Positions 26,466 to 57,560 of a stretch of 64,000 nt of DNA are shown one piece after another. The DNA comes from Cupriavidus sp. AU9028. GTDB taxonomy: Bacteria > Pseudomonadota > Gammaproteobacteria > Burkholderiales > Burkholderiaceae. Location of the stretch: NCBI RefSeq assembly GCF_019795295.1, contig NZ_JAIMCG010000001.1, forward strand, positions 186,001 through 250,000. The letters run 5' to 3'. The position numbers and the translations under genes were made by a program. The notes below the pieces were generated by a model. That model was not told the origin of the DNA. It saw nothing but the letters and a program-made list of their open reading frames with translations, and ran no database searches. Each line of letters begins with the position of its first letter. Position 1 is the first letter of the stretch.

Positions 26466-26556
<91 letters not shown>

Positions 26557-26565
26557 CAGTAACGC

Positions 26566-26598
26566 AAAGCCCCCGGAAACCTCGTTTCCGGGGGCTTT
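26566..26598 (+). terminator. terminator after tRNA-Ser
   Basis: A 15-bp perfect stem (26566-26580 with 26584-26598), 3-nt loop, followed by GTCTTTT. It begins 11 bases after the tRNA. Because both arms end in A/T runs it could also serve the binding-protein gene arriving on the other strand. Confidence 0.92.
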
Positions 26599-26627
26599 GT
26601 CTTTTGCAGGCTCGTCGTGCGTAGCCG

Positions 26628-27551
26628 TTACTGGAACGCCTTGTCGTTCGGGTTCGCGAACAGCTCCTTCATCTCCGCCGACAGCGGGTAGTTCATGTTC
26701 ACGCCGCGCGGCGGGATCGGCGACAGGAACCACTTCTTGTACAGCTGCTCGGCCTTGCCCGACTTCATCATGTCGGCGATGACGCCATCGGCCAGTGCCT
26801 TGAACTGCGGATCGTCCTTGCGCAGCATGCAGGCATAGTTCTCGGTCTGCAGCGGCTTGCCGGCGACGGTCCACTGCCCCGGCTGCTTGGCCTTGGTCAG
26901 TTCCCCATACAACAGCGGCTCGTCCATCACGAAGGCCGCTGCCCGGCCGCTCTCGAGGATCAGGAAGGCCTGACCGTGGTCCTTGGCGCTGGTCAGGTTC
27001 ATGTTCATCGCCTGTTCGCCGTTCATCTTGACCAGCAGGCGCTCGCCAGTGGTCCCGGCCGTGGTCACGACATTGCGTCCCTTCAGATCGGGGAAGTCAT
27101 TCACTCCCGAGTCCTTGCGCACCAGCATGCGGATGCCATAGACGAAGATGCTGTTGGTGAAGCCGACCTGCTTCTGCCGCTCCAGGTTGTTGGTGGTCGA
27201 GCCGCACTCCAGGTCGATGGTGCCGTTCTGCATCAGCGAGATGCGGTTCTGCGAGGTGATCGGCATCAGCCGGACCTGCAGGTTGGGCATCTGCAGCTGC
27301 GTCTTCACCTTGTCGACGATCGCCAGCATGATCTCGTGCGAGTAGCCCATCACCTCGCGGCCATTGTTGTACGAGAACGGGATCGACGATTCGCGGTGCC
27401 CCAGCGAAATCACGCCGCTTTCCTTGATCTTGGCCAGCGTGTCGTTCTGCTGCGCCTGGGCGGCGCCGCTGCCCGCCAGCACCGCCGCCAGTGCCAGCGG
27501 GGCGGCGAGCAGGGACGCCAGCTTGCGTGCGGATATCGTGTTCGACTTCAT
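26628..27551 (-). CDS. glutamate/aspartate-type ABC transporter binding protein
   Basis: 307 residues: a signal peptide (LASLLAAPLALAAVLAGSGAAQAQ, cleavage ~residue 33) and a periplasmic binding fold of solute-binding family 3. Seen: GVISLGHRESSIPFSY, LMPITSQNRISLMQNGTIDL, ECGSTTNNLERQKQVGFTNS and VMDEPLLYG, the pattern of GltI-like glutamate/aspartate receptors. AAGGAG nine bases before the ATG at 27551 sets the start. No permease or ATPase adjoins it. It follows a D-amino-acid dehydrogenase-like gene in the same direction, 84 bp apart, suggesting joint use in amino acid uptake and oxidation. Confidence 0.9.
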   Translation of the reverse strand: MKSNTISARKLASLLAAPLALAAVLAGSGAAQAQQNDTLAKIKESGVISLGHRESSIPFSYNNGREVMGYSHEIMLAIVDKVKTQLQMPNLQVRLMPITSQNRISLMQNGTIDLECGSTTNNLERQKQVGFTNSIFVYGIRMLVRKDSGVNDFPDLKGRNVVTTAGTTGERLLVKMNGEQAMNMNLTSAKDHGQAFLILESGRAAAFVMDEPLLYGELTKAKQPGQWTVAGKPLQTENYACMLRKDDPQFKALADGVIADMMKSGKAEQLYKKWFLSPIPPRGVNMNYPLSAEMKELFANPNDKAFQ

Positions 27552-27635
27552 GGTGAGGCTCTCCTTGGTTGTGGAACGGCTCGTTGTGGTCTTCGACATC
27601 TCGTGGTTCCAGGCGGCGGCCCTCCGGTACGGCCC

Positions 27636-28910
27636 TCAGGCCAGCGTCGCCGCATAGTCGGTCGCATGGACAGCCGGCCGGCGTCCCGCCATCGTATCCG
27701 CCAACAGGCTGGCGCTGCCCATGGCCAGCGTAAACCCCAAGCCCCCGTGCCCGATATTGAGCCAGAGCCCGGGCATGCGTGACTCGCCGATCAGCGGCAG
27801 GCCGCTCGGCGTCGCCGGCCGCAATCCTGCCCAGGGTTGCAGGTCGTGCAGCGCGTGGCCGTCCGCCAGCCCGGGGAACACCTGCCGCGTTTCCGTCAGC
27901 AGCGTGCCGGCACGCTCGGGGTCCGGCCGCGGGTCCGGACGGGTGGGCGAGCCGGTCAGGTCCGCCATCCCCGCTACGCGCACGGTGTGGCCGATGCGCG
28001 CATAGACGATCTTGCGGGCGAAGTCCGTCACGCTGATATGCGGTGCGCCCGCGCCCGACGTCACCGGCACCGTGATGCTGTATCCCTTCAACGGCCATAG
28101 CGGCGGGCGCAGGCCCAATGGGCGCAGCAGGGCGGCGCTGCCGATGCCGCCGGCGACCACTACCGCGTCGGCCTCGACGAAGTCATCGCCGGTCTCGACG
28201 CCACGCACCCGGCCACCGGCATGGGCGATGCCGCGTACCGTGGCGCCGAAGCGAAGGGTTACGTCGGGATGGGCGGCAAGCAGCCCGGCCAGTGCGCGGC
28301 AGAAGCGGTGGCAGTCGCCGACTTCCTCGCTGGGGGTATGGACCGCGCCGGCGATGCGCTCGCCCAGCGCCGCCAGCGCCGGCTCCAGCGCGATGCAGGC
28401 GTCGCGGTCCAGCGCCTGCTGCTCGCTGCCCAGCTGCGCCTGATAGTCGAGCAGGCGGCGGGCGGCATCGAAACTGGCGGCATCGCGATGCACGATCAGC
28501 TTGCCGCGGCGGGCGAAATCGAAGTCGATCGAGCGCTGCGCCAGCAGGGCCTGCATGCGGTCGCGCGAATGAAACGCCAGGCGCAGCAGCTTGCGCGTGG
28601 TGTCGTCGCTGGCGGTTCCGTTGCAGGCCCGCATGAAGCCGGCCAGCCAGCGCCATTGGGCCGGGTCCAGCCGCGGATGCCAGCGCAGCGGGGCGTCGCG
28701 CCGCAGCAGCCAGCCCGGCACCTTGCCCAGCACGCCGGGGCCGGCCAGCGGCGCGACGTAGCTATAGCTGAGCTGCCCGCCATTGGCGAAGCTGGTTTCC
28801 AGCCCCGGGCCCTCGCGCCGCTCCAGCACCGTCACGCGATGTCCGTCGCTGGCCAGCTGCCATGCCGTCGCCAGCCCCACCACGCCCGCGCCCGTGATTA
28901 CTACCCGCAT
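27636..28910 (-). CDS. D-amino acid dehydrogenase-like FAD oxidoreductase
   Basis: 424 residues of the DAO superfamily. The N-terminal dinucleotide motif VVITGAGVVGLATAWQLA is followed by FANGGQLSYSYVAPLAGPGV, the DadA hallmark. The C-terminal WAGLRPATPSGLPLIG and GHGGLGFTLAMGSA complete the flavin site. Such membrane-peripheral enzymes oxidise D-amino acids to keto acids and pass electrons to quinones. GAGG before the ATG at 28910 supports the start. A LysR regulator diverges from it with 115 bp between the starts and is its probable controller. Confidence 0.88.
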   Translation of the reverse strand: MRVVITGAGVVGLATAWQLASDGHRVTVLERREGPGLETSFANGGQLSYSYVAPLAGPGVLGKVPGWLLRRDAPLRWHPRLDPAQWRWLAGFMRACNGTASDDTTRKLLRLAFHSRDRMQALLAQRSIDFDFARRGKLIVHRDAASFDAARRLLDYQAQLGSEQQALDRDACIALEPALAALGERIAGAVHTPSEEVGDCHRFCRALAGLLAAHPDVTLRFGATVRGIAHAGGRVRGVETGDDFVEADAVVVAGGIGSAALLRPLGLRPPLWPLKGYSITVPVTSGAGAPHISVTDFARKIVYARIGHTVRVAGMADLTGSPTRPDPRPDPERAGTLLTETRQVFPGLADGHALHDLQPWAGLRPATPSGLPLIGESRMPGLWLNIGHGGLGFTLAMGSASLLADTMAGRRPAVHATDYAATLA

Positions 28911-29025
28911 CGTTGCCTCGTTCCATTGCAATGGCAGCAACAGTAAAGGAGATCGGCGACGCTGCCCAATGCGAAGACGTGCCAGAATATGTCTTCAGGC
29001 TATACCCTGCTCGAGACCTTCCGCC

Positions 29026-29991
29026 ATGCGACTGCGCCAGATCGAAGTCTTTCGCGCCGTGATGCTGACCGGCACCGTCAGCGAGGCCGCGCGCCTGCTG
29101 CATGTCTCGCAGCCAGTGGTGACCCGCGTGCTGCAGCACGCTGAAGCGTCGCTGGGCTTCCGCCTGTTCGACCGCAGCGGCGGCCGCCTGCGCCCGACGC
29201 CGGAAGCCAATGCGCTGTATGGCGATGTCGAGCGCCTCTACGGCGAGATCGACCGCGTCCGCCGCGTGTCGGAGAGCCTGCGGCACAAGGGCGCGGGCCG
29301 CTTGCGGGTGGCAGCGACGCCAAGTCTTGCGGAACCGTTGCTGGTGCCCGCGCTGCAGCGCTTCTGCGCGCGCCATCCCGACACGCAGGTCCAGGTGCTG
29401 ACGCACCATACCGAAGAGATCGTGCAGGGGCTGCTGCGCAACCAGATCGATATCGGCTTTGCGTTCGCGCCGCCGCCGCACGAGGCGATCGCCGCGGTGC
29501 CGGTCGCGCAGGGCAGGATGCTGCTGGCGGTACCGGCAGGCCGGCCGCTGGCCGGACAGGCCCGGCGCAGCGCGCTGCCGATCGCCCGGCTGATGGACCG
29601 CGCCTTCATCGGCTACGACGACCAGAGCTCGCTCGGACTGATGGTGCGCCAGGTGCTGGCGCGCAACGGACTGGAGCCGCGCTCCACGCTCGAGGTGCAG
29701 ACCTACTCGCTGGCTCGCCGGCTGGTGCAGGGCGGGCTCGGCATGGCATTGCTGGACCAGTACACGGCGCTGGGCGACCAAGCCGGGGCCGGCGCGCGCG
29801 ACGTATCGCTGCACGAGATCCGCCCCGCGCTGCCGTTCGAGATCCAGATGCTGCGCGCCAGCCATCGCGGCATTCCCAGTCTCGCCGCCCAATTGCGCGA
29901 GGAGTTCGTCCGCGTGGCCGCGATGCTCGATGCCCAGGTCGAAAGCCGGCTCAGTGCCCCCGCGGTCGTCTTCGAACACGGACTGAAGTAG
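29026..29991 (+). CDS. LysR-family transcriptional regulator
   Basis: 321 residues. The N-terminal helix-turn-helix (MRLRQIEVFRAVMLTGTVSE, then VSQPVVTRVLQHAE) and two-lobed effector domain (~90-300) are complete. It is divergent from the D-amino-acid dehydrogenase-like gene, the classic LysR arrangement, so it probably controls that gene, and perhaps the binding protein behind it, in response to an amino acid. The start at 29026 is the family start. Its end lies 11 bp from the convergent end of the MBL-like gene. Confidence 0.92.
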   Translation: MRLRQIEVFRAVMLTGTVSEAARLLHVSQPVVTRVLQHAEASLGFRLFDRSGGRLRPTPEANALYGDVERLYGEIDRVRRVSESLRHKGAGRLRVAATPSLAEPLLVPALQRFCARHPDTQVQVLTHHTEEIVQGLLRNQIDIGFAFAPPPHEAIAAVPVAQGRMLLAVPAGRPLAGQARRSALPIARLMDRAFIGYDDQSSLGLMVRQVLARNGLEPRSTLEVQTYSLARRLVQGGLGMALLDQYTALGDQAGAGARDVSLHEIRPALPFEIQMLRASHRGIPSLAAQLREEFVRVAAMLDAQVESRLSAPAVVFEHGLK

Positions 29992-30002
29992 ACCGCGACA
30001 CG

Positions 30003-31241
30003 CTACGCACGGACAGGCAACAGGGTAGGGGACTGGCGCAATGGCCGTACCGAGCAGCCCGGCGCGCCATCCTTGCCGACTGCTGGCAGAAGGGCGGCCA
30101 GCGCGTCGGCATCGGCATCGGGGTTCCCCATCATCCAGCAGGTGAACGGCCGCCGCACCGTCCGCTGGCTGCGTGCGGCCTTGAGTTGCTCCAGCCAGTC
30201 CCGCGCGGACAGGCTGTCCGTACCGTCTCCCCAGATCAGGTAGTGATCCGCCGATACCGCCTGCAACATGGCCAGCGAGGCATCGGCGCTGCCCGAGCCC
30301 GTCCATACCGTCATGGCATGCAGATGGAGTCCCTCGTCGCCGAGGCGTCCGGACGCGCGCAAGGTGCGCAGGACCTGGGCGCCATCGGCATCGCCCGATA
30401 GCAGCACGGTGCGCCCGTCCTCCTCGGCCAGCAGCATCAGCGGCGCCAGCGACGGCGTGCGCGTCGCCAGGCAGGCGCTGGTCCCCTCCCAGTCGCGCAG
30501 GTCCAGTGGATTGACGAGCCGGCCTTCAGCCATCCCTTGCACCGCCCGCAGATAGTGCTCGCGGATCGCCCGCGTGCCCATGCGCACCACCGGCTCGCAG
30601 GGCCAGCGGCGCCACGCGGCCTGCGCGTTGGCAATCGTGTCCTCGGCGGGGCCTAGCAGCGTCAACGTCAGGGAGCCGAGGGCGAGCGTGCTGGTGCCGG
30701 TGGAGCCAGCGCCCGGCGCGTGCAAGGCGATGTCGAGCATGTCCGGCGCGCACAGCCGCGACAGCCTGGCCGCGCGCGGCAGCGCCAGCGCGATGCGGGC
30801 ATCGTCGCGGCCGAGCGCCTCCAGTGCGGGCACACCGCTGGCACGCAGCGCGCGTGCCCGTGCCGACAGCAGCGGCTGGGCCGCGGCGCGAGCCTCGCCG
30901 ATCTGCGCATCGATGCCGTTGTGCCAGAGCGCGCCAATGCGGGGGACCGGGGGCGAGGGCGGCAGCGCGGGCGGGTCGCCCAGTTGCGCATGGAAGTCAT
31001 GCACGCGCCAGGCCAGCGCCGTTTCCAGCAGGGCGGATACGCCCGCCAGCGCGTCGGCGCCGGCGTGGGTCACGGCCAGCAGATGCAGCCCGTCGCCGCG
31101 GCGGCCGAGCTTGTGCAACCAGGGCGCGACGCTGGTGGCCATCGACGCGCCGCTGCCGCCGTCGCACAGCAGCCGATGTCCGGAGCGCGCTTCGATCGCC
31201 ACGCAGCCGCCGTCGCGGGACGGAAAGAGCAGGACCTTCAT
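30003..31241 (-). CDS. metallo-beta-lactamase-fold-like protein with lost metal motifs, partner of the subtilase
   Basis: 412 residues. The N-terminus (VLLFPSRDGGCVAIEA, then RLLCDGG at ~24-29) and C-terminal part (APLMLLAEEDGRTVLLSGDA, ~266-285) follow the layout of ComEC-like MBL proteins. However, the first metal motif, expected as T-H-x-D-x-D-H, reads THAGADA (58-64). The HHGS expected after the LLSGDA strand reads WTGS (313-316). Most metal ligands are therefore gone and it is probably not a hydrolase. No signal peptide is seen. Its ATG overlaps the TGA of the subtilase gene (ATGA, 31238-31241), so the two proteins are made together. The role is unknown; a regulator, sensor or substrate adaptor of the protease is the simplest inference. 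Confidence 0.7.
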   Translation of the reverse strand: MKVLLFPSRDGGCVAIEARSGHRLLCDGGSGASMATSVAPWLHKLGRRGDGLHLLAVTHAGADALAGVSALLETALAWRVHDFHAQLGDPPALPPSPPVPRIGALWHNGIDAQIGEARAAAQPLLSARARALRASGVPALEALGRDDARIALALPRAARLSRLCAPDMLDIALHAPGAGSTGTSTLALGSLTLTLLGPAEDTIANAQAAWRRWPCEPVVRMGTRAIREHYLRAVQGMAEGRLVNPLDLRDWEGTSACLATRTPSLAPLMLLAEEDGRTVLLSGDADGAQVLRTLRASGRLGDEGLHLHAMTVWTGSGSADASLAMLQAVSADHYLIWGDGTDSLSARDWLEQLKAARSQRTVRRPFTCWMMGNPDADADALAALLPAVGKDGAPGCSVRPLRQSPTLLPVRA

Positions 31242-33430
31242 GCTCGCCTCCGCCGTGGCTCGGCCGCCGCGCGCAGCGTCTCGCGCCGCTCGCTGCGCTG
31301 ATCGAAGCCGATCGCTTCCTCGATCGCCGCGACTGGATCGATCAGGCCGTAGCCGGCGTCGTTGCGCCAGGCATAGTCGTGCGAGGGCAGCGGCCGCGCG
31401 GTACGGCGCAGGATGCCCTGGCATTGCGCCGCGCTCAATGTCGGCCGCGCGGAGAGCATCAGGCCCATCGCGCCGCAGACATAGGGGCTGGCCATGCTGG
31501 TGCCGGTCATCTCGACCCAGCTGCCGGGTTCGGCAAAGCCGTTGGCGGCGACGATGCGCGTGCCCGGTGCGCAGACGTCGGGCTTGAAGCGTCCATCGCG
31601 CGTCGGCCCCTGGCTGCTGGTGATATGCACGCGCGCCCGTTCCACGTCCGCGTTGGCCACGCCGATGACCCAGCGCGCGCAGGCCAGCGAATTGATCGAG
31701 TGCGAGTCGACGTTGCTGGCTTCCGTGAAGAACGACGGAAAGCGGTACGCCGCCAGCTCGCGCCGCCGCTGCAGCTCCATCGGATCGTCGCGTTCGATCC
31801 AGGCATGGAAGCCGCCATCGCGCACCTCGTCGCCATGCAACCGGATGCGCCACGTGCCAGCCGCCACCGGCGAGTACGCCTGGGGGTCCAGATAGGGCGA
31901 CAGATAGATGCCAATGTAGTTGTCGCCGTTGGAGGGGTGGTACAGCTCGTTGTAGACCGACAGCACGGTGCCGTCTGGCAGCCGCCGGTTCTCGATGTAC
32001 TCGCGGGGCGCCACCTCGTACCATTGCGCCGACCCTGGCGGCTGCACCGCCACCGAGAAGCGGTCCTGCGCGCCGTACCAGATTTCCAGCTCGTTCTCGG
32101 AGAAGTCGGCAATGCCGTCGCCGACCACGGTCCATTCGATCTCCACCGTCAGGCCGCGCGAGGCGATGCGGCCGCTGGTGTGGATGCGGCCCATGATCCA
32201 GCCGAAGCGGTCCTCGTCGGTGGGCCGCTCCTGGCCGGCATTGCCGGCCGCGATGGCGATGGCGCGGCCCGGCATGGCGAGGAAGGCGTCGAGCCAGCGA
32301 CAGGTGCCATTGGCGCCATCGTGCGGTCCGCCATTGGTGCCCAGGCTGATATTGATCGACAGCGCCAGTCCCTCGCGTTCCGCGACCCGAAGCAGGTATT
32401 CGACCGCATGCAGGATGCGCGAAGCATCGCTGAAGGTCCAGCGCCGTGCCGCATAGTCGCCAGCCGGCGGATCGACGCTGATCAGCACGCCGGCGATGCG
32501 CGCACCCGGGCAAAGCCCGCTGTTGCCGGCGGCGATGCTGGTCACGTGGGTGGCATGCGAGCCCGGTTCCCGCTGCGACTGGCGCTCCAGTTCCGTGGCC
32601 GGCGGCCCGCCGCCGCGCGCGACCTGCAGGGCGGCGTCCAGCCGCTCGCGCGTCAGCTCCGAGCCGTAGCCGAAGCCCTCGGGCGGTGGCCGGAAGTCGC
32701 CGCCCTGGTCCCAGATCGACACGAAGCGGGTGCCGCCGTTGGCGTCGAGGAAGTCCGGGTGCGAGAAATCGAAGCCGCCGACGTCGATGATGCCGATCAG
32801 CACGCCCTCGCCACGCTGCGGCTGGCCCTGCACGGTCACCTGCCGGACGGGCGGCTCCAGCGCCGCCGCCCCGGCAAGCGGCAACCGCATCGACAGGCTT
32901 TCGCTGTGGTGCACGTAGCGGACCCCGGGCAGCGCCGCCAGTGCACGCAACGAGGCGACCGGCACGGTCGCGGCGATATAGTTGCCGCGGTGCAGGAGCG
33001 GCCCGGCCGCAATGGCCCCCATCCGCTGGCCTGTCGCTTTCCCCGAGGCCCTGCTGCCCAGCGTGCCGGTCATGCGCGCGATGGCCTGGACGATCGAGTC
33101 GGCCACCGCCGCGTCGCCATCGCCGGGCTCGATCTCCACCACCACGTTCAAATAGACGTCGTCCGCGGCCGGCATCGCGGCCTGCCCGGGGCGCGCCACC
33201 TCGCGCGGCGGCTGCGGCAGCGTGCCGGCCCCGGCCAGTCCCGCGGCAAAGCGCGCGGCCCCCGGCAGCGCGGGCGGGGGAGGGGCCTTGCCCGCGGCCG
33301 GGCGCCGCCGCTCGAGCGCGGCGGTGGCCAGGCACTGCGAAAACTCGGCGCGCATGCGGTTGACGGACGCGCTGCCATTGCTCACCAGGCGCAGGCGCGG
33401 ATGCAACTGCTGGATGATGTCGTCGCTCAT
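31238..33430 (-). CDS. subtilisin-family (S8) serine peptidase, no signal peptide
   Basis: 730 residues. The catalytic triad is Asp216 (LIGIIDVGGFDFSHPDF), His292 (GSHATHVTSIAAG) and Ser645 (GTSMASPYVCG), with the oxyanion Asn near 397 (IAAGNAGQ). The first ~200 residues include a proline/alanine linker (~43-90) and a small alpha/beta unit (~92-180, VYLNVVVEIEPGD) that may be an inhibitor-like prodomain. Residues ~425-555 form a beta-rich insert between Asn and Ser, placed like the jelly-roll insert of Csp-type subtilases. No signal peptide is visible, so it should be cytoplasmic, which is unusual for S8 proteases. It is the first gene of a coupled pair with the MBL-like protein. Confidence 0.9.
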   Translation of the reverse strand: MSDDIIQQLHPRLRLVSNGSASVNRMRAEFSQCLATAALERRRPAAGKAPPPPALPGAARFAAGLAGAGTLPQPPREVARPGQAAMPAADDVYLNVVVEIEPGDGDAAVADSIVQAIARMTGTLGSRASGKATGQRMGAIAAGPLLHRGNYIAATVPVASLRALAALPGVRYVHHSESLSMRLPLAGAAALEPPVRQVTVQGQPQRGEGVLIGIIDVGGFDFSHPDFLDANGGTRFVSIWDQGGDFRPPPEGFGYGSELTRERLDAALQVARGGGPPATELERQSQREPGSHATHVTSIAAGNSGLCPGARIAGVLISVDPPAGDYAARRWTFSDASRILHAVEYLLRVAEREGLALSINISLGTNGGPHDGANGTCRWLDAFLAMPGRAIAIAAGNAGQERPTDEDRFGWIMGRIHTSGRIASRGLTVEIEWTVVGDGIADFSENELEIWYGAQDRFSVAVQPPGSAQWYEVAPREYIENRRLPDGTVLSVYNELYHPSNGDNYIGIYLSPYLDPQAYSPVAAGTWRIRLHGDEVRDGGFHAWIERDDPMELQRRRELAAYRFPSFFTEASNVDSHSINSLACARWVIGVANADVERARVHITSSQGPTRDGRFKPDVCAPGTRIVAANGFAEPGSWVEMTGTSMASPYVCGAMGLMLSARPTLSAAQCQGILRRTARPLPSHDYAWRNDAGYGLIDPVAAIEEAIGFDQRSERRETLRAAAEPRRRRA

Positions 33431-33609
33431 TGCGGCTCCTCGATTCGGTCAGCGGGTGCCATGGATAGCGTAGTTGCTGGCGCGCGCGAGGGCCACTGCA
33501 ATGTGTTGATCGCTGTCCTGCCGGTCTTTGTGCGCCGGCCAACGCCGTCTATGATGACGGACCAACGCGCGTCCACCAACGCGCATCGCCTGCCAACGCC
33601 CTCCGACCG

Positions 33610-34722
33610 ATGCTCGACGACCTGCCAACGCTGCCCGACTGGCTGATGCCGGACCAGCCCACGCCCGCGCTGCTGCTGACGGCGCTGCTGGTCTTCGTGC
33701 TGCTCAGCGTGCTGACCCTTTGCCTGGTGCGCGCCGTGCTGGTGCTGCTGCGGCCGGTGCTTGCCGGCATGGACGCCCTCCGGCTGTATCTGCACGCCGC
33801 TTTCGGCGACCGGCTGCGCGAGCGCTGGCCGCGCTCGATCGGCCTGCTGGAGCGGGAGGCGGCGGAACTGCTGTTGCTTGCCGCCGCGCTGGCAGCCCTG
33901 GCCGCCAGCGCCAGCGGGCTGGTGGTGCTGGCATTCGCGGTGGTCCAGGACGCGCCGCTGGTGCGGCTGGACGCGGCGGTATTCGAATGGCTGCAGCGTG
34001 GCCGGGACGCGGGCCTGGACCGGGTGATGGTGGCGATCACCGAAATGGGCGGCGCGCGCGTGACCGTGACGCTGGGCCTTGCGGTATTCGCCTGGCTGGC
34101 CTGGCGCCGCGCGTGGGCACCCGCGTTGTACTGGGCGGTGGCGCTGCTGGGGGCGCGCGCCTGCGTGGTGGCGCTCAAGCTCGGTTTCGAGCGGGCGCGG
34201 CCTGCCAGCATCTACGGCGGGGTGGAGTCGTTCTCCTTCCCCAGCGGGCACGCGACCAGCAGCATGGTCACCTTCGGCTTCCTGGCGTTCCTGCTCTGCG
34301 TGCGCCAGCGCTGGCGCCTGCGGATTCCGGTGCTGGTGCTGGCCAGCACGCTGATCGCCGCAATCGGCGTGTCGCGGCTCTACCTCGGCATGCACTGGCT
34401 CTCGGACGTGCTGGCGGGCTACGCCCTCGGCCTTGCCTGGATCGTGCTGCTCGCCGCCCTCTACCTGGCGCTGCACCGTCCGGGCCGGCTGCCTGCCGCG
34501 CCTCTGGGTACGGTGGCGGCCGCGGCGCTGGTGATTGCCGGAGGATGGGTGATGCTGTTTCGCCTTCCCGACGCGGTGGAGCGCTACCGGGAAGTGCGGC
34601 CGGTCAGCGCGCTGTCCCTCGTCCCTTGCACGGCAGGCGCCGTGGCCGCGGCCGCCGGTTCTCGCGTGACCACCGCCACCGCCTTCTGCCGCTCGGGTGA
34701 CAGCCGCGAGACCAGCAGCTGA
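33610..34722 (+). CDS. PAP2-family membrane phosphatase
   Basis: 370 residues with several transmembrane helices and the three PAP2 motifs: KLGFERARP (motif 1), FPSGHAT (motif 2) and SRLYLGMHWLSDV (motif 3, with the nucleophilic His). The motifs face the periplasm in relatives that dephosphorylate undecaprenyl pyrophosphate, phosphatidic acid or phosphatidylglycerol phosphate. The N-terminal ~115 residues hold two extra helices. The last ~45 residues (after LVPCTAG) look non-family and overlap the CorC-type gene on the other strand by 139 bp; the true end may once have been earlier. It is divergent from the subtilase operon. Confidence 0.88.
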   Translation: MLDDLPTLPDWLMPDQPTPALLLTALLVFVLLSVLTLCLVRAVLVLLRPVLAGMDALRLYLHAAFGDRLRERWPRSIGLLEREAAELLLLAAALAALAASASGLVVLAFAVVQDAPLVRLDAAVFEWLQRGRDAGLDRVMVAITEMGGARVTVTLGLAVFAWLAWRRAWAPALYWAVALLGARACVVALKLGFERARPASIYGGVESFSFPSGHATSSMVTFGFLAFLLCVRQRWRLRIPVLVLASTLIAAIGVSRLYLGMHWLSDVLAGYALGLAWIVLLAALYLALHRPGRLPAAPLGTVAAAALVIAGGWVMLFRLPDAVERYREVRPVSALSLVPCTAGAVAAAAGSRVTTATAFCRSGDSRETSS

Positions 34723-51526: not shown

Positions 51527-52978
51527 ATGGCGAAGTCCAGGAAGATCTTTGTCGGGGCCCGCGTCCGGAGACTGCGCGAGCAACGCGAGCTGAGCCAGCT
51601 GGCCCTGGCGGGGCGCCTGTCGCTGTCGCTCAGCTACGTCAGCCAGATCGAGAACAACCAGCGGCCGGTGACGGCAGCGGTGCTGCTCAAGCTGGCGGAG
51701 GTGTTCGGTGGCGACGTCGGCCAGTTCTCGGAAGACCAGGATCAGCGCCATCTCGCGGAGCTGGATGCGGCGCTCAAGGACCGCACCGTCTGGGCGGGGA
51801 GCGTCCCGCCGGCGACGCTGCAGCGCATGATCGAGCAGGCCCCCGACCTGGTCGAGGCATTCCTCAGCCTCTATACCCGCTATGGCCGGCTGCAGGACGA
51901 ATATGCGCAGGCCATCGATCGGCTGTATGCGGACGGCGCAGGCACTGGCGCAGGCGGCGCCCCGCGCGGCATCGGCTTCTCCCAGCCGCACGAGGAAGTG
52001 CGCGACCATTTCAACCGGCAGAACAACTATCTGGACACGCTCGACGTGCTCGCCGAACAGCTGGCGGGCAGCAAGGGACTGCTGCCCGGTGCACGCAGCG
52101 AGCCGCTGCGCCGGCTGCTGCTCGGCGGCTTCGGCATCAGCGTGACGGAGGCCAGCGGCGCCGATGGCTGGCTCCGGCGCTACGATCCCGGCCGCCGGCA
52201 GATCGAACTGCGCGTCGGCCTCACCGATGCGCAGCGCGCCTTTCAGCTGGCGACGCAGCTTGCGCTGCTGATGCATCGCGACGTCATCGACGCGGAAATC
52301 CGCGCCGCAGGGTTCACCGATCCGCCGACGCAGGAGCTCGCGCGCCAGGGCCTTGCCCACTATTTCGCCGGCGCGGTGCTGTTGCCGTACCGGAGCTTTC
52401 TCGACGCCGCCACCCGGCTGCGCTATGACATCGAACTGCTGCAGCAGCAGTTCCAGGTCAGCATCGAAACCGTCTGCCATCGGCTCTCCACCCTGCAGCG
52501 GCCCAATGCGCGCGGTGTGCCGTTCTATTTCGTCCGCCTCGATCAGGCCGGCAATATCTCGAAGCGCCAGAGCGCGACGTCGTTCCATTTCGCCCGGCAT
52601 GGCGGCGCCTGTCCGCTGTGGCACGTGCACGAAGCCTTCGCCCAGCCTGGCCGCATCCTGGCGCAGGTCGCCGAGATGCCCGACGGTATCCGCTACTTCG
52701 GCATTGCGCGCACCATCGAGCGTGGGGGAGGGGGCTTTCGCGCCCGCCGCAAGCTGTTCGCCATCGGGCTCGGCTGCGAACTCGCCCATGCCCGCGATCT
52801 GGTCTACGCCGACCACATCGATGTCGACCATCCGTCCAACGTCGTGCCGATCGGACCGGGATGCCGGGTCTGCCCGCGGCAGGATTGCGTGCAGCGCGCT
52901 TTCCCGCCGGCCGGCAAGGAGATTCTGATCGACAGCAATGCGGAGTCGCTGGTGTCGTATCGGTTTGGGCGCGAATAG
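51527..52978 (+). CDS. XRE-type regulator of the short-chain fatty-acyl (RamB-like) family
   Basis: 483 residues. An N-terminal XRE helix-turn-helix (~10-65, RLREQRELSQLALAGRLSLS, SYVSQIENNQRPVTAAVL) is followed by a long ligand-binding part. It includes a degenerate IrrE-like stretch (~285-320, TQELARQGLAHYFAGAVLLP, lacking HExxH) and a C-terminal DUF2083-type domain with GPGCRVCPRQDCVQRAFPPA. Relatives control acetate, propionate or methylcitrate genes by sensing acyl-CoA-linked signals. Divergence from mmsA suggests it controls valine/propionyl-CoA metabolism. AAAGG lies seven bases before the ATG. Confidence 0.88.
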   Translation: MAKSRKIFVGARVRRLREQRELSQLALAGRLSLSLSYVSQIENNQRPVTAAVLLKLAEVFGGDVGQFSEDQDQRHLAELDAALKDRTVWAGSVPPATLQRMIEQAPDLVEAFLSLYTRYGRLQDEYAQAIDRLYADGAGTGAGGAPRGIGFSQPHEEVRDHFNRQNNYLDTLDVLAEQLAGSKGLLPGARSEPLRRLLLGGFGISVTEASGADGWLRRYDPGRRQIELRVGLTDAQRAFQLATQLALLMHRDVIDAEIRAAGFTDPPTQELARQGLAHYFAGAVLLPYRSFLDAATRLRYDIELLQQQFQVSIETVCHRLSTLQRPNARGVPFYFVRLDQAGNISKRQSATSFHFARHGGACPLWHVHEAFAQPGRILAQVAEMPDGIRYFGIARTIERGGGGFRARRKLFAIGLGCELAHARDLVYADHIDVDHPSNVVPIGPGCRVCPRQDCVQRAFPPAGKEILIDSNAESLVSYRFGRE

Positions 52979-52997
52979 ACGCGGCGCGGCGGAGCGC

Positions 52998-53231
52998 GTG
53001 ACGCGTTACACTCGCCGTACCGCGGTGACTGAAGGAAACTGGGGCGCGCGCGGAAAGCCGATCAGCGTGGCGACCATTGCCGACGCCGTCGGGCTTCCGA
53101 AGGACGGCGAACGCTATGCCTGGGTGAGAGCGTATTTCGCCGCGAAGGCACGGCAGTACGCTGGTGCCGGCTATCCTGAAGATGCTGGGGGGTTGCTCCC
53201 GACGGAGTCATCGCGCAAGGCGACCTGTTGA
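52998..53231 (+). CDS. short unidentified reading frame, possibly a fragment
   Basis: A frame from a GTG encodes 77 residues, including GNWGARGKPISVATIADAVG and YAWVRAYFAAKARQYAGAGY. The composition looks protein-like and not like a shadow, since no gene lies opposite. No family is recognised, and no good ribosome site is seen. It sits between the regulator and a Fic remnant, in a stretch of broken genes, so it may itself be a remnant. Confidence 0.35.
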   Translation: MTRYTRRTAVTEGNWGARGKPISVATIADAVGLPKDGERYAWVRAYFAAKARQYAGAGYPEDAGGLLPTESSRKATC

Positions 53232-53284
53232 ACCTCTATCAGACGCTTGTTGGATGCCACCGAAGCGAAGCGCCACCAGAAGGA

Positions 53285-53446
53285 CTGCTCGATGGGTTCC
53301 AAGGGGCGCTGACCAGCAGCAAGTGGGCCGCCATGGCCAAGTGTTCGCCCAATAGAGCGCTGCGCGATATCAATAATCTGATGTCGCGAGGTGCGTTGAC
53401 GAAGATGGAAGGGGGCGGACAAGTACGGCTTATGAGCTGAAGGTCG
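53285..53446 (+). pseudogene. C-terminal remnant of a Fic-family protein
   Basis: One frame reads LLDGFQGALTSSKWAAMAKC followed by SPNRALRDINNLMSRGAL. This is the C-terminal winged-helix tail of DUF4172-type Fic proteins (AMP-transferases). The ending GGGRTSTAYELK, expected for this tail, appears only after a one-base frame change near 53418. The Fic catalytic core (HPFxxGNGR) is absent from the window. This is a truncated and frameshifted scrap, not a working gene. Confidence 0.65.
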
Positions 53447-53485
53447 GGTGCCTGGCCGGTATGTGCAAAGGTTGGGGTTGCACTG

Positions 53486-53875
53486 TCATTCCTCGTCCTG
53501 CGGTGTGGTGGGCGAAGACCCTGCAATTGCTTCGTACAACTGCTTTACCTGAGTGAACAGTGCCGGAAGGTCGCGCTTGATCGTCAGCCAGACGATTCTC
53601 AGATCCACCTTGTGATAGGCATGGCAGAGGCGGTTACGCATGGCATACATGACTTGCCACGGAATATCGGCATGCTCCGCAACGAATGCCGGCGCCATGC
53701 GCTGGACATTATTGGCTGCTTCCCCAATGATCTCGATGTTGCGAACTACGGCATCCTGAACCATTGGCGTGCGAAGAAAGGACGCCTCGTCCATCCCCGC
53801 GGTATAGCCGTCGATACGCTCCAGGGCGTCCAGAATGTGGCCGAGGTAGTCCGGAACCCGCAAGGACTTGTTCAT
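53486..53875 (-). CDS. hepT: HepT-type HEPN ribonuclease toxin
   Basis: 129 residues, an all-helical HEPN (DUF86) protein. The active motif is RNRLCHAY, exactly R-x4-H-x-Y. In characterised pairs the Arg and His form the RNase site, and the Tyr is adenylylated by the MntA antitoxin to silence it. The start overlaps the stop of mntA (ATGA, 53872-53875), giving coupled synthesis. It lies next to the tmRNA island, within accessory DNA. Confidence 0.93.
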   Translation of the reverse strand: MNKSLRVPDYLGHILDALERIDGYTAGMDEASFLRTPMVQDAVVRNIEIIGEAANNVQRMAPAFVAEHADIPWQVMYAMRNRLCHAYHKVDLRIVWLTIKRDLPALFTQVKQLYEAIAGSSPTTPQDEE

Positions 53876-54162
53876 ACGGGCACAGTCTCGGCGAGTACGG
53901 TGTCGAGGATCTTGTCAGGCAGGGCACCGGGCGTCAGCACGTCGACGGCCACGCCGAGAAGTTGCTCAAGCTCCACCTGAATCCTTGCGATATCCATAAG
54001 TGAAGTTTCCGGAGTCGGGTCGATCAGCAGGTCGAGGTCGCTGCCGTCGACGTCAGCGCCATGGACCACCGAGCCGAATACCCGCACATTCGTTGCACGG
54101 TGCGCAGCCACGATGCGGCGAATCTCGTTGCGATGAACGTCCAGAGCTGTGGATGGTTTCAT
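53872..54162 (-). CDS. mntA: MntA-type minimal nucleotidyltransferase antitoxin
   Basis: 96 residues with the nucleotidyltransferase signature GSVVHGADVDGSDLDLLID, fitting G-S-x10-D-x-D. In the HepT/MntA system it neutralises the HEPN toxin by transferring AMP groups to its conserved tyrosine. It is first in the pair, with hepT directly coupled. The upstream region (54163-54292) should hold its promoter, though I could not pick clear boxes. Confidence 0.92.
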   Translation of the reverse strand: MKPSTALDVHRNEIRRIVAAHRATNVRVFGSVVHGADVDGSDLDLLIDPTPETSLMDIARIQVELEQLLGVAVDVLTPGALPDKILDTVLAETVPV

Positions 54163-54292
54163 GCCGTGGTCCTCGTGGAGGGCAGGAAGCGGTCTGCGTG
54201 TCGAGCCATTCTACCCGGCATCATGAGCGTCCGATCACGGGATCTATCGATTGATTTTCCGAGAATCGGTCGTTTTCCAAGCAGGGACGAGA

Positions 54293-54328
54293 AAAATCCC
54301 CGGGGCACGGGGGTAACCCGGGGATTTT
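54293..54328 (-). terminator. strong terminator, probably the original tmRNA terminator displaced by island insertion
   Basis: A perfect 12-bp stem (54293-54304 with 54317-54328), loop GGCACGGGGGTA and flanking A/T runs. Read on the minus strand it ends in TTTTT. It lies 32 bp beyond the truncated tmRNA-end repeat at 54360-54377, the distance expected of the terminator that followed tmRNA before the island entered. It could also shield mntA from read-through. Confidence 0.8.
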
Positions 54329-54359
54329 CGAGTTCAGCAAAGAATGGCGGACGTGAATG

Positions 54360-54377
54360 TGGTGAAGCCGGCGGGAA
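54360..54377 (-). repeat. att-like repeat, far border of the tmRNA island
   Basis: An 18-bp sequence matching the last bases of tmRNA (57200-57217) at 17 of 18 positions, in the same orientation (TGGTG, one change, AGCCGGCGGGAA). This fits a displaced tmRNA 3' end, the standard outcome of integrase-mediated insertion. Confidence 0.7.
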
Positions 54378-54776
54378 AAGGAGCGGCTCCACCATATTAC
54401 TCTAACCCCTTGACTCTCTTGGTCGCACTGGTGAGGTGCTGCGTCCTGCTGTGTCCCATGTGGGATACCTGTTCGGGGTCAAGTTCAACAGCATGGCGGG
54501 ACATGGGGCCGTGTGAGGTTGGTGTGGATTCGATTGATCGATAGGGAATCGAACCGAGTCCCTCTTCCCTCTAAGCGGCTACGTATAAGGAATCCCGTTT
54601 GAAAGCCGGCCCCACTACACAAGCATGGGGTAAAGGTTTTCGTTTTATCTCTAAGGGGTAGCCTCTTTTCTGTGGTGCGGTCGAGGAATTGAACCGACTT
54701 GGGGCGAAGACGCCCAAGGGCGGGGAGTGGTACCGTGGGCAGAGCGGATGATGGCGCGGCTGACTCCGCGTTTAGA
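54378..54776. other. left end of the island, no gene found
   Basis: About 400 bp with no supported gene on either strand. It contains a candidate integrase arm site: TGTCCCATGTGGGATACCT at 54452-54470, itself an inverted repeat around TG, whose right half recurs at the other border. Two stretches resemble tRNA T-arm text (AATCGAACC near 54547, AATTGAACC near 54689), but no tRNA folds around them. Confidence 0.5.
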
Positions 54777-55235
54777 CTAGCCGCGTGGGTCAGCGATCAA
54801 GCGTGCCTGCTGCCCGTATAGCACCAGCACCCGCTGACCCACAGTCAGGGGTGGAGAAGCACCTTGCACGACTGTCATCAGATTGCCGTTCTCGGTCTGC
54901 ACTACGTATTCTGCGCCCGTTTGCTGGGTTACCCCCTGCTCAATGGCTGCAGCGGCAAGGCCACCGATAAGCGCTCCACCGACGGCACCGATCACATTAG
55001 CCCGTGCACCGCCGCCGATTGCGGAACCAGCCGCGCCGCCAGCGATTACCCCGGCGGCGGTGCCTGGACCAGATGCGCCTTGGATATTCACTTGGCGGGC
55101 ACTGATGATGATTCCTGCGATTGACCGATTAACTTGGCCGACTGCACCAACTGAGTAGCTGTCCGGGGAAACGTTATATGCGCAGCCGCCCACTAAGACA
55201 GAGAGCATGAATGTTAATACAATGATGCGTCTCAT
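54777..55235 (-). CDS. glycine-zipper outer-membrane lipoprotein (SlyB-like)
   Basis: 152 residues. A signal peptide ends in lipobox LVGGCAYN (Cys ~18). The middle (~55-110) is a glycine-zipper run (AGGAAGSAIGGGARANVIGA, GALIGGLAAAAIEQG), as in SlyB/Pcp lipoproteins. The C-terminus has YVVQTENGNLMTVVQ and GQRVLVLYGQQARLI. Such proteins reside in the outer membrane, and SlyB-type ones guard it under stress. It is the second gene of a pair in the island; its start overlaps the upstream gene stop by 4 bp. Confidence 0.85.
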   Translation of the reverse strand: MRRIIVLTFMLSVLVGGCAYNVSPDSYSVGAVGQVNRSIAGIIISARQVNIQGASGPGTAAGVIAGGAAGSAIGGGARANVIGAVGGALIGGLAAAAIEQGVTQQTGAEYVVQTENGNLMTVVQGASPPLTVGQRVLVLYGQQARLIADPRG

Positions 55236-55810
55236 TTTGATGCCGTTTTAGTGGGGAACATCGGTCTGCTTGCGTCGACGGTATCGAGCGATTGAAGGAA
55301 CTGTGAAATGTTGTTTTGCACAGCCCGATTAATCGATTCACGAGCACGAGTGACTCCCATGAACGCATAGTCCCAAGGCACTGTCCCACTGGAGTCAATG
55401 GTCTGGGTATAAAGAATGTCACCGTTCTTTCGGTTAATCAGTTCATACTTGGCGGCGGTTGTTGTGGTCATAGACGCGCCGGCGGCTGGAGGCTCCATCT
55501 TGAGAATCTTGACCGACAAGTTGACCTTGGTGCTGCTGTCATCCTGGAAGATGGACATTCTGTTCAAGGCATCTTGAAGGGCCGTCTGCCATAGCTGCGG
55601 CACCAAGCCCTCCATACCGGCGGGCATGTCGCCCGTCTTTTCATCCGGCCGCGCCAGCGTCACGGTCATCGAGCGCACTTCCGCGTCAATCTTTTTCTGG
55701 CTGTATCCAACGTTTGGAGGAACAAAGTTCAAGGGAGGGGCCGACGCACATCCCACAAGGATTGCTGCGCTTACACCTACGATGGTGAGCTTCAGGATAC
55801 GAGCGTTCAT
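55232..55810 (-). CDS. putative lipoprotein of the tmRNA island
   Basis: 192 residues. The lipobox is ILVGCASA (Cys ~21). The mature part reads VRSMTVTLARPDEKTGDM, LWQTALQDALNRMSIFQDD, SVKILKMEPPAAGASMTTTT and KNGDILYTQTIDSSGTVPWD. It resembles a group of outer-membrane lipoproteins of unknown role, with a predicted mixed alpha/beta domain. Codon and base usage look less GC-biased than the core genes, fitting transfer. It is coupled to the SlyB-like gene (ATGA overlap). Together they are the only apparently intact island cargo. Confidence 0.8.
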   Translation of the reverse strand: MNARILKLTIVGVSAAILVGCASAPPLNFVPPNVGYSQKKIDAEVRSMTVTLARPDEKTGDMPAGMEGLVPQLWQTALQDALNRMSIFQDDSSTKVNLSVKILKMEPPAAGASMTTTTAAKYELINRKNGDILYTQTIDSSGTVPWDYAFMGVTRARESINRAVQNNISQFLQSLDTVDASRPMFPTKTASK

Positions 55811-55940
55811 GTTTGGTTAAGTGCTTGCTCAAAATCACTATCCTAAAGCTTCAATGGAGTCTCGGGATTCCCTCTTGTGTGGGGTTGCCCGGCCAATTGC
55901 TCCTGAGGACGCATCTTCGTGTTCACCGTTATGTCTTGAA

Positions 55941-57109
55941 TTAGGGGATGAGAGCAAGTATGTCTTTCGGCAAAGAAATACGATCGGCCGTCTCGTGCAA
56001 TACTGTGGCATTCGTGTCGTGAAAATAGACCTTGCTGACGATTCTAACAGTCTTGTGGCCCACGATCCTCGCCAGCGATGGTTTCTGTGGCTCCGGTATT
56101 CATTGCGTCGGTAATAAACCGGTGGCGAAATGAGTGGAGAACGGTTTCCGGATCAGTAACGCCACATCGGTCGCTGTAGCGGCCGAACCATTTTGAGGCG
56201 GCTGTTCCATATCCGTCCCTGCCGGGCTTAAGCTCCGGGAATAGTCGTGATTCTCCGGCGGAGCGCAAGCCCTCAACGTGCCGAAGCAAACCGGGGTCGA
56301 TTAACGTTCAAATGCAACGGCACCACGCACGGAGCATTGGCATTCTTGGTCCGCTGGCCTTCCTCTTCGTCCAGCATGCTGGTGCATGGCACGCCGTCGA
56401 TGGACGCTATGTCGTTCAGGGAGAGTTGGTAGAGCTAGCTGATGCGCGCCCCGGTCAGGAGCGCCATCGGCATCAGCCAGTAGGCGAAGGAGTGTTTGAA
56501 GCGCTTCTGCTGGTACTCCGGCGACGAAAAGGGGCGACTAACTCCTAGTGTCTTGTGTATGTGTCGCCGCTTGATCGTTTGCTCATCCTTGATGGTCAGG
56601 GCTTCAGAGGGATTGCGGTGATGCCGTATCTTTCCTGCTAGATGCGCCACTTGAACGTCGTGCTGACGCGCTCGACACTCGATTGATGGTCGCCGATGCT
56701 CTCGGCTCCTGTCCCAGTGCGGCGATCTCAGCCAGCCTCATCCCGGCGTATTGCTTGTGCTGGCGTGCGCGATGCCCTCCTGCGTGCGCTTGAAGAGCTC
56801 GTCATCGAGTCGGCTGTTGGCTTTTTCCTTCTGCTCCCGCCTGATGGCCTTGAGGTGCTCGATTTCGATCCGGTATGAGAGTGGGTGGTGCTGGCCATGT
56901 GTGGTCGGAGTGTGCCGAACACCTGCGCGAACATGGCCGCGAGCCGGCGAGGTGCGCGGCCGCTTCCCGGACGCTGGCGGTGTCCAGGCTGCGATAAGCC
57001 TCTTTGACCGGGAATAGTGACCGGAGGCCATCCGGTATGCGCTGGCGGAAGTAGAGGATACCGTATCGGTTTCCGTGCCGGCGCGCGGGTGGTTCGATGG
57101 ACGTGCCAA
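55941..57109 (-). pseudogene. tyrosine-recombinase (integrase) pseudogene
   Basis: Pieces of one integrase of ~390 codons can be followed across frames. The N-terminus ARPSNHPRAGT (57109 down) is joined after a frameshift by RYGILYFRQRIPDGLRSLFP. Then come RIEIEHLKAIRREQKEKANS, ALLTGARIS with the first catalytic Arg and an in-frame TAG two codons later, SLNDIASIDGVPCTSMLDEE, and LHSFRHRFITDAMNTGAT with the H-x-x-R box. After a second frameshift, IVGHKTVRIVSKVYFHDT carries the catalytic Tyr, and the frame ends at 55941. At least two frameshifts and one stop disable it. Its 5' end faces tmRNA, as in tmRNA-specific integrases. Confidence 0.88.
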
Positions 57110-57126
57110 GCCCGGTGTGAGGTAGT

Positions 57127-57140
57127 CATGTGGGACACCT
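57127..57140 (+). repeat. candidate integrase arm-type site, right border
   Basis: CATGTGGGACACCT, matching 54457-54470 (CATGTGGGATACCT) at 13 of 14 bases. One copy lies near each border of the island and both point the same way. Short arm-type repeats near attachment cores are typical of tyrosine integrases; the assignment is inferred. Confidence 0.45.
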
Positions 57141-57160
57141 CACCAAAAACTGGCACTCCA

Positions 57161-57190
57161 AATAGAAACCGCCTGACGAATCAGGCGGTT
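57161..57190 (-). terminator. present terminator of tmRNA, supplied by the island
   Basis: A 10-bp stem (57167-57176 with 57181-57190), 4-nt loop, followed on the minus strand by TTTCTATTT. It starts 10 bp after the tmRNA CCA end, inside the island border. Confidence 0.75.
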
Positions 57191-57199
57191 GAAGTGTGC

Positions 57200-57217
57200 T
57201 GGTGGAGCCGGCGGGAA
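57200..57217 (-). repeat. att-like repeat, tmRNA border of the island
   Basis: The last 18 bases of tmRNA, including the CCA end, repeated with one mismatch at 54360-54377. The 3' end of tmRNA is a known favourite integration target. Confidence 0.75.
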
Positions 57218-57560
57218 TCGAACCCGCGTCCGCAAGCCCTCCACAGAGAGTTCTACATACTTAGTTCAGTCATTTAATTTAACCGGCGCATCGCGGACGA
57301 ACACGCTCTACGACGGCGAGTCACTTTGGTTTTCGTCCCCGATGTCGTGACACCTTCGGGGCTTATCTGACGTAAATGACCTCGCTGGTTCTTGCGAACC
57401 CTAGCCCGTCAGCGAGCCAGTGCGAGGACGGCGGCCCTTAGGCTGCCAGTGCGTAACGTTCGTCGTTAGCAGTTATTGCGTTCCCATTGATTTACGAGGT
57501 GACGGGTCCTCGGTATGCCCTCTACTGCTTTGTAACCCACGTCGAAACCAGGTCGGCCCC
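57200..57560 (-). ncRNA. ssrA: transfer-messenger RNA (tmRNA)
   Basis: 361 nt. The 5' end GGGGCCG pairs with CGGCTCC before ACCA at the 3' end, forming the tRNA-Ala-like acceptor; the T-arm reads GGTTCGATTCC. The tag frame at 57438-57470 encodes ANDERYALAA and stops at TAA. tmRNA with SmpB frees stalled ribosomes and marks the product for proteolysis. The gene is intact although an element has inserted at its 3' end. Confidence 0.97.

Follow-up and report, generated by a model that had tools for sequence, protein, structure and literature searches.

We describe two overlapping genes in a 64,000-nucleotide stretch of the genome of Cupriavidus sp. AU9028 (the window; contig NZ_JAIMCG010000001.1, positions 186,001 to 250,000). 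They encode a protease of the subtilase (S8) family and a protein related to the metallo-beta-lactamase (MBL) nuclease domain of ComEC. Both genes, and all of the features of the pair that we describe below, are on the minus strand. The subtilase gene (31238..33430, 730 amino acids) comes first and is followed by the MBL gene (30003..31241, 412 amino acids). As originally predicted, the genes overlap by ATGA (31238..31241): the ATG of the MBL gene (31241-31239) overlaps the TGA of the subtilase gene (31240-31238). The likely ribosome-binding sites, read from the sequence, are GGAG (33436..33439) for the subtilase and GGAGG (31247..31251) for the MBL gene; the latter site lies within the final codons of the subtilase gene, 5 bases before the ATG. 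A single fused gene, as the open frame at 30003-33542 would allow, is ruled out: these are two genes in different frames, and the frame merely stays open in high-GC DNA.

The subtilase matches Peptidase_S8 from Pfam (E = 2e-25), and a domain scan found no other Pfam domains in it. The original prediction was that its catalytic triad is intact and that it has no signal peptide, and both points held up. The triad consists of Asp216 in GIIDVGG (codon 32783..32785), His292 in GSHATHV (32555..32557), and Ser645 in GTSMAS (31496..31498), and the oxyanion residue, Asn397, is present as well. The N-terminus has no hydrophobic stretch, as judged by Kyte-Doolittle hydropathy rather than by a signal-peptide program (the highest mean for any 19 residues starting at residues 1-40 is 0.33). 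The subtilase is apparently cytoplasmic. Near the N-terminus is a motif (LHPRLRLVSNGSASVNRMRA, residues 9-28; 33347..33406) that is conserved across phyla in the relatives, with the consensus LHPKLRxxxNGSxxVNxxRA. It is followed by a presumed prodomain (around residues 91-183; 32882..33160), whose placement is based on its position and pattern and on the description of CspB (PMC3567191). Between Asn397 and Ser645 is an insertion (around residues 410-570; 31721..32203), which coincides in position with the jellyroll domain of the Csp proteases; the correspondence is one of location only.

Pfam alone gives only a below-threshold MBL match for the second protein. The best solved matches for a profile of the MBL family are the nuclease domain of the competence protein ComEC (9ic4, E = 3e-12) and another ComEC structure (30bt, E = 7e-11), which agrees with the prediction that this is a ComEC-type protein. 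When the protein is aligned with its relatives, THAGADA (residues 58-64; 31050..31070) replaces SHIDDDH, which is motif 2 of the MBL fold, and WTGS (residues 313-316; 30294..30305) is found at the position of the QHHGS motif. These replacements had been predicted correctly. A refinement is that three of the ligands survive: His59, Asp63 (the second Asp of HxDxDH), and the Asp of TGD. The ligands that are lost (Asp61, His64, and both His of HHGS) account for four of the seven positions that are conserved in the family. Because four ligands are gone, the usual two metals should not bind, judging from the fold. The final 40 or so residues can barely be aligned with the relatives.

With the subtilase as the only query, we scanned 84,980 species genomes, in a search that was seeded by two short peptide patterns and therefore undercounts the loci. 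We found 64 subtilase loci, at 34-76% identity, and 61 of these have an MBL gene directly downstream. The organisms that carry both genes belong to nine phyla. Every relative whose unbroken frame spans the catalytic triad has kept it. As for the loci without a separate MBL gene, in one (L058), the sequence stops about 90 bases beyond the subtilase, and in Bradyrhizobium yuanmingense (L083:4998-6863), a shortened subtilase runs on, without a change of frame, into part of an MBL protein, which is likely a remnant of the pair after a deletion. Only the most distant locus (L084, 34% identity) truly lacks an MBL gene. Among the 57 loci in which both genes are nearly complete, the spacing between them is -7 to +31 nucleotides in 55; the exceptions are L065, with 208 bases, and L076, in which the subtilase is split across two frames. 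Furthermore, the two proteins have diverged together: across 55 loci (excluding the window and Cupriavidus gilardii J11, for reasons that will become clear), the subtilase and MBL distances are correlated (r = 0.76), and none of 999 permutations reached this value. We had to consider that two unrelated genes happen to overlap at this locus. Given the co-occurrence in 61 of 64 loci across nine phyla and the correlated divergence, chance has next to no probability as an explanation, and we consider it refuted. Overall, the subtilase and the MBL protein form a real, old, and conserved two-gene pair, and the partnership that had been proposed from the window's sequence is borne out.

Searches at closer range gave similar results. 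These searches scored only the best candidates from each genome. In a sample of 299 genomes from the family, searching with the subtilase and searching with the MBL protein each recovered the same six genomes, and 7 of the 60 genomes that we examined from the genus have the subtilase. The ATGA overlap is present in the window and in five relatives, and a seventh carrier (L021) has identical spacing, so that six other Cupriavidus carriers share the -4 spacing. The pair is also found on plasmids: the subtilase matched 23 of 72,556 plasmid records, of which we examined seven. The Rhizobium and Sinorhizobium plasmids with copies of the family (H1, H3, H5, H9, and H10) all carry the pair, with intact metal motifs, and two distant matches (H13 and H16) lack it. 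Five matches to the subtilase in phage records are distant (26-27% identity).

No third gene recurs beside the pair. When we clustered 1718 open frames from the 5-kb flanks, no family was found in more than five loci, aside from groups that are confined to Cupriavidus, which rules out a required third gene. Similarly, the prediction stated that no STAND gene adjoins the pair, and we found none among the eight proteins from the locus that we scanned. One locus, from Flavivirga (L045:8914-11184), has a second and divergent S8 gene on the opposite strand, immediately after the pair.

A protease that is made together with a dead enzyme had been taken to suggest that the MBL protein is a sensor, an inhibitor, or an adaptor, and the suggestion was made to check if some partners keep their metal motifs. 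Almost all of them do. Both motifs could be read in 58 loci, and 57 of these retain HxDxDH, the Asp of TGD, and both His of HHG/HHA. The sole exception is C. gilardii J11 (L024). In three more loci, the first motif was the only one that could be read, and all three retain it. A dead enzyme is thus ruled out as the design of the system. Because 57 of 58 loci retain the motifs, the dead MBL protein is a late, local, and derived state of two Cupriavidus lineages (the window and J11), which undercuts the proposed role as a sensor, inhibitor, or adaptor for the system as a whole; for the lineage of the window, that proposal is not undercut.

The window and J11 are sisters in the tree of the subtilases (support 97/97) and, weakly and with a long branch, in a small tree of the MBL proteins (81/72). 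They also group together (support 96) in a larger MBL tree, which was built quickly, has long branches among the trypsin-linked sequences, and was used to place the window and to list phyla. A tree of the flanking genes leaves their branching order unsettled. From these trees, a single loss of the metal site is likely.

What became of the MBL protein after this loss? One possibility is that it is a working pseudoenzyme: its catalysis was erased, but the protein persists because it serves a subtilase that is still under constraint, whether as an inhibitor, as a substrate decoy, or as an adaptor. In J11, ligands changed at 5 of 7 positions, versus 4 of 36 other columns that are conserved at a 95% threshold (p = 0.002, Fisher exact test). 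At a 90% threshold, the result is similar (5 of 7 versus 8 of 57; p = 0.003). These changes are concentrated at the active site, as expected if catalysis were erased from a protein that was kept, and both J11 and the window still have an intact MBL frame and start overlap. In the window, by contrast, 4 of 7 ligands are lost versus 13 of 36 other positions (p = 0.27; at the 90% threshold, 4 of 7 versus 25 of 57, p = 0.39), so the erosion of the window's protein is broad. The four non-ligand positions that J11 lost (at the 95% threshold) are lost in the window too. Also, the seven ligand positions were picked after the alignment was inspected, and just two genomes are involved.

We also compared ratios of nonsynonymous to synonymous divergence (dN/dS), using the Nei-Gojobori (NG86) method, which probably under-corrects the synonymous divergence (dS) of the more distant pairs. 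The MBL gene of J11 has dN/dS of 0.35 and 0.38 (0.35 against C. gilardii USM5), which is about the same as for USM5 and C. respiraculi (0.37), an equally distant pair with intact motifs. For the subtilase, dN/dS is 0.24 between the window and J11 and 0.32 between USM5 and C. respiraculi. However, two close pairs with intact motifs have far lower values (0.12-0.14 for the MBL gene and 0.05-0.09 for the subtilase), and the equality for J11 rests on distant pairs whose dS is poorly corrected. How constrained the MBL protein of J11 is thus varies with the intact pair chosen for the comparison. The grouping of the window and J11 as sisters, if weakly so in the small MBL tree, speaks for a working pseudoenzyme. 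Overall, we regard one as unlikely.

The other possibility is that the pair in the window has been decaying since the nuclease was lost, with an idle MBL protein that is headed for loss. The window's MBL gene is accelerated: its branch length is 1.29-1.45, as compared to 0.01-0.45 for the other Cupriavidus carriers, and in a regression of subtilase against MBL divergence across 57 loci, the window has the largest MBL excess. Its dN/dS is higher (0.51 against J11 and 0.60 against USM5), and its rates at the three codon positions are fairly flat (0.30/0.29/0.44, versus 0.06/0.05/0.20 for the subtilase of the same lineage). The poorly alignable C-terminus fits with decay as well. On the other hand, we saw no stop codon or frameshift in either lineage, and the protein can be aligned up to its C-terminal stretch. 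An open frame is weak evidence by itself in such high-GC sequence, where even an incorrect frame is uninterrupted for 3.5 kb. Also, the window's subtilase has evolved no faster than that of C. respiraculi, whose MBL partner is intact. Overall, the subtilase is constrained and the window's MBL protein is relaxed. Decay of the pair is a genuine possibility, if on balance a doubtful one.

The homology of the MBL family points to a nuclease. As in the ComEC nuclease domain (9ic4 and 30bt), the HxDxDH and HHGS blocks occur in the same order, but in contrast to ComEC, there is no membrane channel part, around 130 extra residues separate HxDxDH from TGD, and the window's ligands are lost. The PADLOC models for LmuA, for Avs1a, and for the MBL protein associated with DRT systems matched all four of the relatives that we scanned (E = 6e-41 to 4e-45 for LmuA), and the window's protein matched the LmuA model with E = 2e-11. 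It is not Avs1a of AVAST type 1 (37.2 bits against NF041809 from NCBIfam, whose cut-off is 420). Across 398 genomes from the phylum, nine had MBL matches at E = 1e-12, one of them being the window's own. Relatives of the MBL protein are found beside a trypsin-HamA protein (L100), a protein of 1554 residues that has a trypsin domain and matches AAA below the threshold (L104), and a protein with trypsin and CTD4 domains that PADLOC calls LmuA (L106). These three look like the nuclease-protease pairs that are described in the main text of PMC12799240. Others adjoin a protein that PADLOC calls NDT_II-A, with a weaker match to LmuA (L107), or a protein without a family assignment (L105).

A few of these relatives have other kinds of neighbors. 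In L101 (2988-6442) and L102 (4811-8263), a distant subtilase (E of about 1e-11 to the family) is directly upstream of an MBL gene with intact motifs; going by the sequences, this is a deeper kind of S8-MBL pair. In L103 (3837-6102), the gene immediately before an MBL relative that keeps its motifs encodes a patatin-like phospholipase, and patatin is perhaps another type of partner. C. gilardii USM5 (G152) has an additional MBL relative, also with its motifs intact (L014:5591-6712; E = 3e-48 to the LmuA model), for which we did not identify a protease partner.

Tuck et al. (2025) reported that the MBL proteins of Hachiman and AVAST systems are pro-nucleases, with insertions over the active site, and that they are cut and thereby activated by a partner trypsin; in a system named canu, the MBL pro-nuclease is turned on by a caspase complex (PMC12799240). 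As described there, the Hachiman (HamM), AVAST (Avs1a), Lamassu, and DRT pairs share with ours a homologous ComEC-like MBL protein, insertions between the motifs, and an adjoining gene for a serine protease. They differ in that their trypsin is fused to a defense protein, while our subtilase stands alone; in our pair, the protease gene comes first, there is no sensor gene, and (in the window) the metal site is lost. In canu, as in our pair, the protease gene is upstream of the pro-nuclease gene and is not fused to a known defense enzyme, but our protease is a subtilase instead of a caspase, no third gene recurs to match the CanB gene of the canu prototype, and we identified no Ig-like (immunoglobulin-like) domain.

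The best solved relatives of the subtilase are the Csp germination proteases (CspB, 4i0w; and 6mw4), with which it shares the S8 triad and an insertion that separates the oxyanion Asn from the catalytic Ser, at the position of the jellyroll. Because it scores far below the NCBIfam cut-offs (121.6 of 1250 bits for CspBA and 94.3 of 675 bits for CspC), we classify it by sequence as Csp-like and not as a Csp. Its partner is an MBL protein rather than a cortex hydrolase, and the hosts of the pair are mostly non-spore-forming, unlike the hosts of Csp proteases. CspB itself has a jellyroll insertion, its prodomain remains lodged in the active site, and SleC is cleaved efficiently only if CspB is active; the form pro-SleC is a zymogen (PMC3567191).

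We think it fairly probable that the locus belongs to a conserved system of a stand-alone, Csp-like subtilase and a ComEC-like MBL pro-nuclease, that this system is activated much like the known gated pairs, and that its nuclease is dead here. Beyond the joint translation of the two proteins from their overlapping genes, we infer the steps by analogy. At rest, the prodomain would keep the subtilase in check, as in CspB, and the insertions would do so for the MBL nuclease, as in HamM and Avs1a. Some trigger (phage infection or damage to DNA, for example) would free the subtilase, which would then cut the loops of the nuclease, and the released DNase would kill the cell or arrest its growth. In the lineage of the window, the nuclease is predicted to be unable to cut DNA, so this would be a crippled or a repurposed copy.

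The defense role that the original prediction guessed at is favored by the kinship to nucleases, the patchy spread, and the copies on plasmids, and the mechanism described in PMC12799240 fits with it; the gene neighborhoods do not support it. Several other observations also weigh against our preferred explanation. First, in Cupriavidus, the pair lies within a conserved gene order and not in a variable defense island. Second, we scanned 145 of the 155 nearest genes around 46 loci (the ten longest, including one S8 gene, were dropped), and the commonest Pfam families (25 of the 175 are considered here) are mostly metabolic. 25 PADLOC models matched these neighbors at E = 1e-10, but each matched just one protein; because the scan had no background set, it speaks neither to enrichment nor to depletion of defense genes. 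Third, a search of viral contigs with the MBL alignment gave 47 pattern matches, and none were confirmed. Fourth, the subtype is rare: among the 398 genomes from the phylum, with the best few candidates from each being scored, only the window has it. Finally, the first insertion in the MBL protein exceeds that of the trypsin-linked relatives in both length and conservation. Because it is more conserved, it may be a domain or a lid rather than a floppy gate.

Some of these observations could also be explained by a zymogen cascade with a role in housekeeping or stress rather than immunity, in which the subtilase matures a metal-dependent hydrolase that acts on peptidoglycan, nucleotides, or phosphocholine. 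Besides the metabolic neighbors, the pair has been kept at one site in one Cupriavidus clade, CspB acts in germination (PMC3567191), and the MBL profile has a weaker match to a phosphorylcholine esterase (1wra, E = 1e-5). But the nearest matches of the profile are ComEC nucleases and MBL proteins from defense systems, and the patchy distribution over nine phyla and on plasmids also counts against such a role, so we think that this is somewhat unlikely.

The protease and pro-nuclease kind of system is already known (PMC12799240), and the main text of that paper does not name a subtilase variant: there, "subtil" appears only for the ComEC domain of B. subtilis, and subtilases might be marked in its Fig. 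4A or fig. S2. Among the papers listed by searches of the open-licence literature in PubMed Central, we found none about the two-gene pair, and as far as searches of that literature go, the lineage with a dead nuclease has not been described. If our explanation is correct, then subtilases are the third family of proteases, after trypsins and caspases, to have been joined with a gated nuclease of this kind. It would be a very small form, with two genes and no fused sensor, and with a protease whose relative CspB is held off by its own prodomain. It would also be a clean model for a two-protein bacterial zymogen cascade that both senses and acts. The active pairs, the pair with a nuclease that is dead at its active site, and the pair with an eroded nuclease would form a natural series for studying the fate of a system after its effector dies. 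A more specific scenario, which we consider quite unlikely, is that a protease-activated nuclease turned into a non-enzymatic partner in one Cupriavidus lineage (as an inhibitor, decoy, or sensor, or with the subtilase acting on another target) and that its parent is an unnamed two-gene antiviral or self-killing system that spans nine phyla.

In all five of the Cupriavidus that we examined that lack the pair, serS, tRNA-Ser(cga), and a PAP2 gene are consecutive within about 1.4 kb. In the window (26466-33610) and in four of the five other carriers that we compared (L009-L012), the pair lies between tRNA-Ser(cga) and PAP2. Except in L009, it is accompanied there by three more genes, which encode a solute-binding protein, a DAO oxidoreductase, and a LysR protein. 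None of the five genes between tRNA-Ser(cga) and PAP2 is integrase-like. In the fifth carrier, J11 (L013), PAP2 is present, and serS and the tRNA were not found in the stretch of sequence that we examined. The pair probably entered beside the tRNA gene and then stayed.

Two of the plasmid copies also speak for a role in defense. One copy of the pair adjoins a Shedu gene (E = 5e-138 to SduA). In the other, an ATPase and an additional S8 peptidase come after the pair, which we take to resemble IetAS. Elsewhere in the window, a stretch of low GC content (52900-57200, with a GC fraction of 0.56 at 54-56 kb) contains a single open frame of at least 170 amino acids (55232-55810) and adjoins the gene for the transfer-messenger RNA (tmRNA, 57200-57560). 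This stretch may be an island.

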